Assembly (NCBI GenBank): GCA_903836945.1
Contig: CAILSO010000008.1
Span: forward strand, 1 to 64,000
Direction: 5' to 3'
DNA: 64,000 nucleotides
From: an uncultured Actinomycetes bacterium
Lineage (GTDB): Bacteria > Actinomycetota > Actinomycetes > Nanopelagicales > Nanopelagicaceae
Position numbers and translations under genes: made by a program. Shown here piece after piece: positions 6,979 to 55,508 of this stretch (its first letter is position 1; every line of letters begins with the position of its first letter). Below the pieces are notes generated by a model, which did not search any database, was not told where the DNA came from, and saw nothing but the letters and a program-made list of their open reading frames with translations.

Positions 6979-7629
6979 ATGCCAATCGTAATTCCAACTC
7001 GAATCTGGGAATACGTTGTTGCCGCAGTCGTGATTATTTTGGCTCCGGGCCCCTCGGTCCTTTTTGTAATAGCAAGAGCAATCGCTTGGGGCCGCGCAAC
7101 CGCTGTTGCAACAGTTGCCGGAAATGTCTTGGGCGCTTTCTCCTTATCGGTCGTGGTCGCCATCGGACTAGGTCCAATTCTGCAACGCTCACACATTGCC
7201 TTTACTTCAGTGCAATTTCTCGGCGGTTCATATTTAATCTATCTAGGCATCGATGCCATAAGACATAGTCAGATTCATGCAAGTGATATGACCTCGCAGG
7301 GTGAGATTCGGCCAAGTAAATTTAAATCAGCACGCGATGGCTTCTGGGTCGGCGCTCTAAATCCAAAGGGTATGGTCTTCTTTGCGGCGATCCTTCCGCA
7401 ATTTATTGATCGATCTCGCGGTCACGTGACTTCACAATTAATTTTGATGGGCGCCATCTTCGCAGTAATTGCCTTCTTCTCAGATGGCGGCTGGGGGGTC
7501 TTAGCCGGAACTATCCGCAACTGGTTAGCCACTGAAATCAAACGGCTAGTGCGAATGCGCGTTACTGGCGGCACCGTAATGATTCTGCTTGGACTTTTCA
7601 CACTTATATCGGCGGTTCGTCAGGCTTGA
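6979..7629 (+). CDS. LysE/RhtB-family amino-acid exporter
   Basis: APGPSVLFVIARA, GGSYLIYLGIDAIR, GALNPKGMVFFAAILPQF. Confidence 0.9.
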   Translation: MPIVIPTRIWEYVVAAVVIILAPGPSVLFVIARAIAWGRATAVATVAGNVLGAFSLSVVVAIGLGPILQRSHIAFTSVQFLGGSYLIYLGIDAIRHSQIHASDMTSQGEIRPSKFKSARDGFWVGALNPKGMVFFAAILPQFIDRSRGHVTSQLILMGAIFAVIAFFSDGGWGVLAGTIRNWLATEIKRLVRMRVTGGTVMILLGLFTLISAVRQA

Positions 7630-7651
7630 TGTCGGTGCTCCATAGGAGAGT

Positions 7652-8341
7652 ATGACCATGGAACTTTCACCGACCGCACGTGCATTCATCAGCCCAAGCG
7701 ATCTAACTTATGGCTGGGACAATTGCCATCGCTGCTTATGGCTCTATTACAACCATCAAGTAAAAGCGCCTTTAACAATGCCATTGGTTGGTGACCTCGC
7801 TGAAATGCAAGAGCTCTCCTACATCGGTAAAGCATCCGTTGATATGCATCCCGATATGCCCGAGGGTAAGGTCCACAAGCATGCAGGCTGGGTCGTTTCA
7901 AAACCGATTGAAGTAGATGGAGAAGTTACGCCCTTTGCTGTGCGCGGTAAATATGACCTGCTTATGGAACACCCAGATGGCGCATTTGGAATCGTTGATT
8001 GTAAGTTCCAAGCAAAGCCAACTGATAAGTCGAAGTTCTACGCCGCCCAGTTAGAGGCCTATGCCTTTGCTCTGGAAAATCCGGCTAAAGATGCGGCAGT
8101 TTCAATAACGACAGCCGGTCTCTTGGTCTGGTCGCCAGTAAAGATTCGCGGAAAATCCTCGGAGAATTTCGGAATGGAACTTGCCTGCAATTGGTTCCCC
8201 ACAAAGCGAGATCCAGAATTTATTGCCAACCGCTTAACTGAATTTATAAAGATGATCACGGGGCCAGTCCCGGAGTCAAAAGATAATTGCGAACAATGTC
8301 GCTACATTCAAGCCCGTACCGAGATATTAGCTAAAGCTTAA
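7652..8341 (+). CDS. Stand-alone PD-(D/E)XK nuclease, Cas4/RecB-like, putative Fe-S cluster
   Basis: CHRC near the N-terminus, GKYDLL, IVDCKFQ, QLEAYAF, C-terminal CEQC. Confidence 0.75.
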   Translation: MTMELSPTARAFISPSDLTYGWDNCHRCLWLYYNHQVKAPLTMPLVGDLAEMQELSYIGKASVDMHPDMPEGKVHKHAGWVVSKPIEVDGEVTPFAVRGKYDLLMEHPDGAFGIVDCKFQAKPTDKSKFYAAQLEAYAFALENPAKDAAVSITTAGLLVWSPVKIRGKSSENFGMELACNWFPTKRDPEFIANRLTEFIKMITGPVPESKDNCEQCRYIQARTEILAKA

Positions 8342-9078
8342 GGCTTCTTCTTCGTTGTGCGCTTCTTAACCGGAGCGCTCTTCTTAGCTTCCTTCATGGC
8401 TTCGCGCTTTTCTTTAAGCAATAGCAGCTTGGCTTCTGACGCATACATCTCCACATATTCTTGACCGGAGAGCTCTTGAATTTTATTCATGATCTCATCT
8501 GTAATCTGTCGAAGAACTTTAAGATCTGAACTATCACCATCGAAATACATCGCTTCGCCAAATACCATCTCAACGCGGCGCACATTTGGAACTACCTGGC
8601 CTGTTGGTTGAATCTCAGCGGTATTAAACATCGCAACTGGAACAATTGCTGCGCCAGATTCAATCGCCATACGCGCAATTCCAGTCCGACCCTTATAGAG
8701 CCGACCATCTGGCGATCTGGTTCCTTCTGGATAAATACCGATACAGGCGCCATCGGCTAAAAGTTCTAAGCCAGTTAGTAGTGCGGCTTCACTTCTGCGT
8801 CCACCGGAGCGATCAACCGGAACTTGCCCAAGAGCTAAGAAGGTAATTTTCTTAATAAAACCTTTAATGCCAGGCGATGTGAAATATTCACTCTTTGCAA
8901 GGAAGGTTACTTTGCGAGGAACTACGAGCGGCATAAAAATTGAGTCACTAAAAGATAAATGGTTGGAGGCAATAATTACCGGCCCACTTTGTGGCACATT
9001 TCGAAGACCAGTTACCTTTGGCCGAAAGAGCAGCGTCAGAATTGGAATTAGAAAAGATTTAAGAGCTTGATAGACCAT
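8338..9078 (-). CDS. plsC: 1-acyl-sn-glycerol-3-phosphate acyltransferase with Lys-rich tail
   Basis: ASNHLSFSDS (HX4D-type), YPEGTRSPDGRLYKGRTG; C-terminal KKRTTKKKP. Confidence 0.9.
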   Translation of the reverse strand: MVYQALKSFLIPILTLLFRPKVTGLRNVPQSGPVIIASNHLSFSDSIFMPLVVPRKVTFLAKSEYFTSPGIKGFIKKITFLALGQVPVDRSGGRRSEAALLTGLELLADGACIGIYPEGTRSPDGRLYKGRTGIARMAIESGAAIVPVAMFNTAEIQPTGQVVPNVRRVEMVFGEAMYFDGDSSDLKVLRQITDEIMNKIQELSGQEYVEMYASEAKLLLLKEKREAMKEAKKSAPVKKRTTKKKP

Positions 9079-19602: not shown

Positions 19603-20415
19603 GTGTTGAGCACCTTTCTAATCGCACTTCGCGAGGGCGTTGAAGCCTCGTTGATCATTGGCATTTTGGTTGCTTACTTGAAGAAGGCGAATCGCGAAAA
19701 GTCACTACCTGCCATTTGGCTAGGTGTTGGTGTCGCAGCGACCTTGGCACTTGGCTTTGGCGCCTTTCTAACATTTACCTCAACTCAATTATCGGTTCGC
19801 GGCGAAGAGATCTTTGCCGGTACAACTTCGATCGCTGCAGTTTTGATGGTCACCTTTATGGTCTTTTGGATGAAGGCAAGCGCCCGCGGAATCAAGGCAG
19901 ATTTACACGGCAAGCTCGATGCCGCACTTCCTCTTGGAAATCTGGCTCTAACTGTCACCGCCTTCTTTGCAGTAGCACGTGAAGGTCTTGAGACCGCGCT
20001 CTTTGTCTTTAGTAATTTTAAAAATGTCTCAAAGGATTCGGCGCCATCACTCGGTTTAATCCTTGGTTTACTTGCCGCCATCTCACTTGGCATTGCAATC
20101 TATCGCCGCAGTATTCAAATTAATTTAGGAAAGTTTTTCACGGTAACTGGCAGCGCGCTATTGGTCATCGCCGCCGGAGTTCTTGCCCATGGCGTAAATG
20201 AATTCCAAAAATTTAACGCCCTACCTGGTGCTGGTGCCTACATTTGGAATTGGAAGTCGGCCAATTCAGTTCTCTCCACAGTTCTAGATGGAACGATCGG
20301 TATTGGAACTTCGATCACCTGGTTGCAACTATTCATCTGGGCGGCTTACCTATCCCTGACCCTTCGTAGCTATCTAAAGAAGCCGGCGCCAGCCCCTCAA
20401 TTGGTTAAGGCGTAA
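19603..20415 (+). CDS. FTR1-family high-affinity iron permease (EfeU-like)
   Basis: LREGVEASLIIGILVAYLKK and FAVAREGLETALFVF REXXE-type motifs. Confidence 0.92.
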   Translation: MLSTFLIALREGVEASLIIGILVAYLKKANREKSLPAIWLGVGVAATLALGFGAFLTFTSTQLSVRGEEIFAGTTSIAAVLMVTFMVFWMKASARGIKADLHGKLDAALPLGNLALTVTAFFAVAREGLETALFVFSNFKNVSKDSAPSLGLILGLLAAISLGIAIYRRSIQINLGKFFTVTGSALLVIAAGVLAHGVNEFQKFNALPGAGAYIWNWKSANSVLSTVLDGTIGIGTSITWLQLFIWAAYLSLTLRSYLKKPAPAPQLVKA

Positions 20416-20477
20416 TTACTTAAGGCTGAAATTACTTAAGGGCGAAATTACTTAAGGCTGAAATTACTTAAGGCTGA
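20414..20477. repeat. 4 x 16-nt tandem repeat (aattacttaaggctga)
   Basis: Four consecutive units 20414-20429, 20430-20445 (variant ...gggcga), 20446-20461, 20462-20477; first unit overlaps the FTR1 stop. Confidence 0.97.
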
Positions 20478-20517
20478 ATAGTTCCCATTTAACCTACCGG
20501 CGAGTAACCTAGCTGGT

Positions 20518-40541: not shown

Positions 40542-40545
40542 GTCT

Positions 40546-40939
<394 letters not shown>

Positions 40940-55313: not shown

Positions 55314-55343
55314 GTCCACCCGCGCCTTCCTATTCAATGTCTT

Positions 55344-55391
55344 GCTCAAATTCCTGCTCAAATTCCTGCTCAAATTCCTGCTCAAATTCCT
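55344..55391. repeat. 4 x perfect 12-nt tandem repeat (gctcaaattcct)
   Basis: Four identical units upstream of the likely thiL start; in frame would read (RNLS)n. Confidence 0.97.
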
Positions 55392-55508
55392 GACGAAAAC
55401 TAGTTCCAAACCTAACTCTAGACGCGGTAACCTTAACTCCTGCAATCACAGTGCCGTGGATTGAAGAATTAAAGGTAGCTTTAACTCAGAATTAAGGGAG
55501 AAATCCAA

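Follow-up and report, generated by a model that had tools for sequence, protein, structure and literature searches.

If a Cas4-like nuclease gene is found on its own, is it the relic of a CRISPR-Cas system, or does its product have a chromosomal task independent of CRISPR? The question is raised by a gene in the 64,000-nt stretch of DNA analysed here (the window), whose host family is probably acI/Nanopelagicaceae, a group of streamlined actinobacteria. The gene, its motifs and its immediate neighbours are as follows.

6979..7629, + strand: LysE-type exporter, upstream neighbour on the same strand, separated from the nuclease gene by a 23-bp gap
7644..7648, + strand: AGGAG ribosome-binding site, read from the sequence, 9 nt before the ATG at 7658
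7652..8341, + strand: stand-alone PD-(D/E)XK (RecB/Cas4-like) nuclease gene, 229 aa as annotated (PF12705, AlphaFold2 model, fold match)
7724..7735, + strand: N-terminal CxxC, C25-H-R-C28 (C25 in 50 of 50 and C28 in 48 of 50 covering rows)
7955..7957, + strand: motif II Asp, D102 in GKYD, invariant in 51 rows
7997..8005, + strand: motif III, D116-C117-K118 in VDCK, invariant in 51 rows
8048..8062, + strand: QhxxY motif, Q133 to Y137 (QLEAY), invariant in 51 rows
8288..8299, + strand: C-terminal CxxC, C213-E-Q-C216, invariant in 51 rows
8315..8317, + strand: R222, at the third canonical C-terminal Cys position, Arg in all family rows
8338..9078, - strand: plsC, convergent downstream neighbour, overlapping the nuclease gene by 4 bp

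The reading frame is genuine and conserved, and both neighbours are those originally named. Translation probably begins at the second ATG, at 7658, which gives a protein of 227 aa, because the AGGAG is spaced 9 nt from this codon and only 3 nt from the ATG at 7652, and because the closest homologue begins there too. Elsewhere in the window, short tandem arrays are present at 20405-20478 (period 16, 4.7 copies; TTAAGGCTGAAATTAC), 40545-40604 (period 15, 4.0 copies) and 55343-55392 (period 12, 4.2 copies, 100% matches).

Sequence comparisons place the protein in the PF12705 (PDDEXK_1) superfamily rather than in Cas4 proper. It scores 34.8 bits against the Pfam model, for which the gathering cut-off is 22, and 18 of 20 relatives match the same model. 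In contrast, it reaches 18.9 bits against the NCBI Cas4 model (TIGR00372), where the cut-off is 65, PF01930 (Cas4) was not reported for it in the Pfam search, and the PADLOC models for Cas4 and for Argonaute-associated Cas4-like proteins match it weakly. The catalytic motifs are those of the PF12705 superfamily (AddB, AdnB and stand-alone RecB-family exonucleases). They are also those of Cas4 and solo-Cas4 (COG1468, TIGR00372, PF01930; SSO0001, PDB 4ic1), with which the query has in common the catalytic D, D-x-K and QhxxY and a length of about 200-230 aa. Although it falls short of the Cas4 models, the nuclease probably works like a Cas4/RecB nuclease.

Structure prediction agrees with this assignment. 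An AlphaFold2 model built from five sequences had a pLDDT of 44.6, and the addition of a viral homologue as a sixth raised this to 80.7 (pTM 0.79; two models out of five were of low quality). The best PDB match of the resulting model is the Cas4 protein SSO0001 (E 7.8e-7, aligned over 212 columns), and further matches include human EXO5, AdnAB, an Argonaute-associated Cas4-family protein, MGME1 and a type I-C Cas4. Nearly all of the 23 PDB matches at E <= 0.001 are of the PD-(D/E)XK class, and a search of a viral library gave Cas4-like proteins and nucleases of phages. At TM-scores of about 0.5, the fold class of the predicted model is secure and its fine geometry is not. The nuclease domains of EXO5, MGME1 and AdnAB (E 2e-5 to 1e-3) are only 12-19% identical to the query and stand in a different domain context. 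Together with the Pfam score, these matches support the PD-(D/E)XK (RecB/Cas4) fold originally proposed for the protein.

The RecB-type catalytic set, D, (D/E)-x-K and QhxxY, is present throughout the family. D102, D116, C117, K118, Q133 and Y137, as well as C213 and C216, are found in 51 of 51 homologous rows of the alignment, a number that slightly overstates the independent count because the query is itself one row and some genes appear twice through two collections (e.g. L004 and L033). All five motifs singled out beforehand (CHRC, GKYD, VDCK, QLEAY and CEQC) are therefore real and conserved beyond chance. No clear counterpart of the canonical motif I His is seen; an invariant Q53-E54 lies near its place, where the alignment is uncertain.

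The cysteines depart from the known pattern. In Cas4 and AddB, one N-terminal Cys is combined with three C-terminal ones, C-x2-C-x5-C (PMC4176176, PMC3466216), and the homologous termini meet at one cluster (PMC4176176); in a RecB-like DUF3799 nuclease, a four-Cys site holds zinc (PMC3466216). The four cysteines had been described as the typical Fe-S signature of Cas4/AddB nucleases, but the query has two at each end rather than one and three, with an invariant R222 at the fourth canonical position. Every family row that covers both ends has an N-terminal CxxC and a C-terminal CxxC-x5-R, except two members in which C28 is replaced by Glu. By comparison, the 17 canonical stand-alone RecBs retrieved from the same bacterial family all carry CxxCx5C at the C terminus, with Cys where the query family has Arg, as does the AdnB end of the host's own genome. 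Judged from these alignments, one ligand position appears to have become Arg and one Cys to have been added beside the N-terminal Cys. Two CxxC motifs arise in 0.6% of shuffles of the query composition, and their conservation is the stronger evidence. A 2+2 CxxC pattern may also occur in nucleases of other phyla (CPR), so that this layout may be commoner than the present comparisons show.

No link to CRISPR was found. A Cas4 of the CRISPR type is recognised by its linkage to cas1/cas2 or an array, solo-Cas4 being without it, and the query has no such linkage. The 64,000-nt window contains no CRISPR-like array and no cas genes neighbour the query; Cas1 was found neither in the host's own genome (90% complete) nor in any of the 121 order genomes searched. 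The proposal of a nuclease acting outside CRISPR is thus supported. The general situation, a solo nuclease in a small genome devoid of CRISPR, is already known, as solo-Cas4 is over-represented in such genomes and is inherited predominantly vertically (PMC5704561).

Relatives among mobile elements are scarce. Single-sequence searches of phages and plasmids gave no significant homologue, and scans of viral contigs gave one remote homologue only, the viral protein at L125 4986-5672 (IMGVR_UViG_3300021138_000007), which is 29% identical to the query over its full length (pairwise E 5e-26). It has in common with the query the ISPSDLT start and the catalytic D and K. Its QhxxY motif is without the Gln, and of the four cysteines it retains C28 but not C25, C213 or C216, from which it follows that the staple is not essential to the fold; given also the two members with Glu at C28, the staple may be dispensable. 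The viral protein is uncharacterised and weakly matches PHROG 31195. By eye, its neighbours on the 112-kb viral contig are a RusA-like protein, a Fic-like protein and a UDP-glucose dehydrogenase. Loci put forward as relatives by a motif scan were rejected as unrelated.

Within its own family, the nuclease is a vertically inherited, single-copy core gene at a fixed locus and is not patchy. It is present in 179 of 201 order genomes and in 102 of the 108 good ones, all of the sampled genomes listed belonging to one family. A class sample of 395 genomes gave 39 with a match, all from that same family, and about 350 genomes outside it without one; in a phylum sample outside the family, the only match was a 57-residue stretch of a 1055-aa frame. 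Most genera share the gene order LysE, nuclease, plsC, lipase, ROK kinase. The protein has diverged little, about as much as plsC, as measured by dN alone since dS is saturated and dN/dS could not be used. Retention in a streamlined genome had been pointed out, and these counts support strong retention in the lineage, but it is not universal: the gene was not found in four genera (g6, g10, g13 and g15), which live without it, and it is hence not essential. In g10, LysE and plsC simply abut. Conversely, g9 (L032, L081) has the nuclease and no LysE in the upstream stretch fetched. The association of the nuclease with its neighbours is therefore not obligatory. A second, divergent copy, 33% identical to the query and without LysE or plsC as neighbours, is present at L051 1753-2439 (G022 contig 16) and could be a paralogue, a transfer or a contaminating contig; a few other genomes show two or three nuclease matches.

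Genera without the query gene carry two canonical stand-alone RecBs, here called types A and B, the first of which is also found in g4 and g16. Like the query, both are single-domain PD-(D/E)XK nucleases, and their distribution is complementary to it; in contrast, they occupy a different locus, have canonical cysteines (C plus CxxCx5C) and gave no useful profile-profile alignment with the query family in hhalign, so that the query does not group with them. Type B occurs in nine genomes, all from the four query-lacking genera, and it never coexists with the query in a genome. The plsC tree also separates carriers from non-carriers of the query, and the exchange of one gene for the other was thus probably a single historical event, which is weak evidence for equivalent function. 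Type A presumably resembles the RecB-like exonuclease Rv2119 of M. tuberculosis. In a recA mutant exposed to mitomycin C, Rv2119 was among the DNA repair genes that were overexpressed (PMC8151990). A stand-alone RecB/Cas4-like nuclease of yet another, third type was seen at L116 1096-2172 (G051 contig 78); its 359-aa frame is extended at the C terminus and has the canonical 1+3 Cys, and it scores 59.2 bits against TIGR00372, just under the cut-off of 65.

Genera g1 and g2 have the query and AdnAB, with no canonical stand-alone RecB detected. In g17 (G042, G053, G513, G519, G543, G557 and others), neither AdnA nor a canonical stand-alone RecB was found, and the query is the only RecB-type nuclease detected. 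The two near-complete g17 genomes G042 and G053 gave no PF12705 match, and the loss of AdnB in this genus is read solely from that scan. Because the same scan of the host's own genome (AdnB/AdnA at L001 1-3038) missed the query itself, absences drawn from it alone are soft, and the loss of AdnA was rechecked with an AdnA query: AdnA was missing in 12 of 12 g17 genomes, where the best matches were UvrD-like, and was found in 5 of 5 controls from other genera.

The explanation favoured here, with confidence somewhat above even, is that the gene encodes a CRISPR-independent, stand-alone RecB/Cas4-type repair nuclease that processes single-stranded DNA and has a rearranged 2+2 Cys staple. Using Mg2+ or Mn2+, such an enzyme would probably trim ends or flaps of single-stranded DNA in repair or replication; the metal would be bound by D102 and D116, catalysis would involve K118, and Q133 and Y137 would complete the RecB-type site. 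The two CxxC pairs would probably clamp the chain ends together at a single structural metal site, occupied by Fe-S or zinc; this would be the canonical 1+3 "iron staple" in a 2+2 form. The repair or genome-maintenance role originally suggested is the most economical reading, and it is the distribution of the gene and the nature of its relatives that point to it. An alternative to the proposed staple is that the four cysteines would not form one site, but two separate CxxC pairs, or that they would serve a redox or structural purpose and bind no Fe-S cluster. The replacement of C28 by Glu in two members and the viral homologue, which keeps C28 alone, are compatible with this view, as is the presence among the fold matches of MGME1, which is not known to contain an Fe-S cluster. 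In view of the near or complete invariance of C25, C213 and C216, of the alignment of the model with SSO0001 over 212 columns, and of the single cluster at which the homologous Cas4/AddB termini meet (PMC4176176), we regard this alternative as unlikely.

Other alternatives concern what the nuclease acts on. An innate defence nuclease degrading phage or other foreign DNA would fit the occurrence of Cas4-like nucleases in defence systems, the weak PADLOC matches and the solved Argonaute-associated protein among the fold matches. Defence genes are typically patchy, however, whereas this gene is vertical, single-copy, at a fixed locus and nearly universal in its family, and no defence gene was found among the neighbours traced in 10-kb loci; a defence role is accordingly unlikely. 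It is very unlikely that the protein works with the LysE exporter or plsC and not on chromosomal DNA, since the argument from the short same-strand gap to LysE and the adjacency kept across most genera is weakened by the two natural separations, the g9 nuclease without LysE and the g10 LysE adjoining plsC without the nuclease. Least probable is that the gene is a Cas4 left over from a CRISPR-Cas system that has decayed or escaped detection: the closest fold is indeed that of a Cas4, SSO0001, but the missing Cas1, the low score against the NCBI Cas4 model, the non-canonical cysteines and the vertical inheritance largely refute it.

Overall, this is a real nuclease with an ordinary predicted fold, a modestly unusual and conserved cysteine arrangement, and an informative distribution. 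A bolder and rather doubtful interpretation is that the protein, with its 2+2 staple, replaced the canonical RecB-type nucleases in DNA-end processing in this lineage and that in g17, as the sole RecB-type nuclease, it would serve double-strand-break repair without a classical helicase-nuclease. Published accounts of Cas4 and AddB treat the 1+3 Cys arrangement as a signature, and the conservation of a 2+2 arrangement throughout a family suggests a staple open to rewiring and lets one ask what it is for. Genus g17, which seems to have lost AdnAB while keeping the small nuclease, offers a natural minimal case for DNA-end processing.
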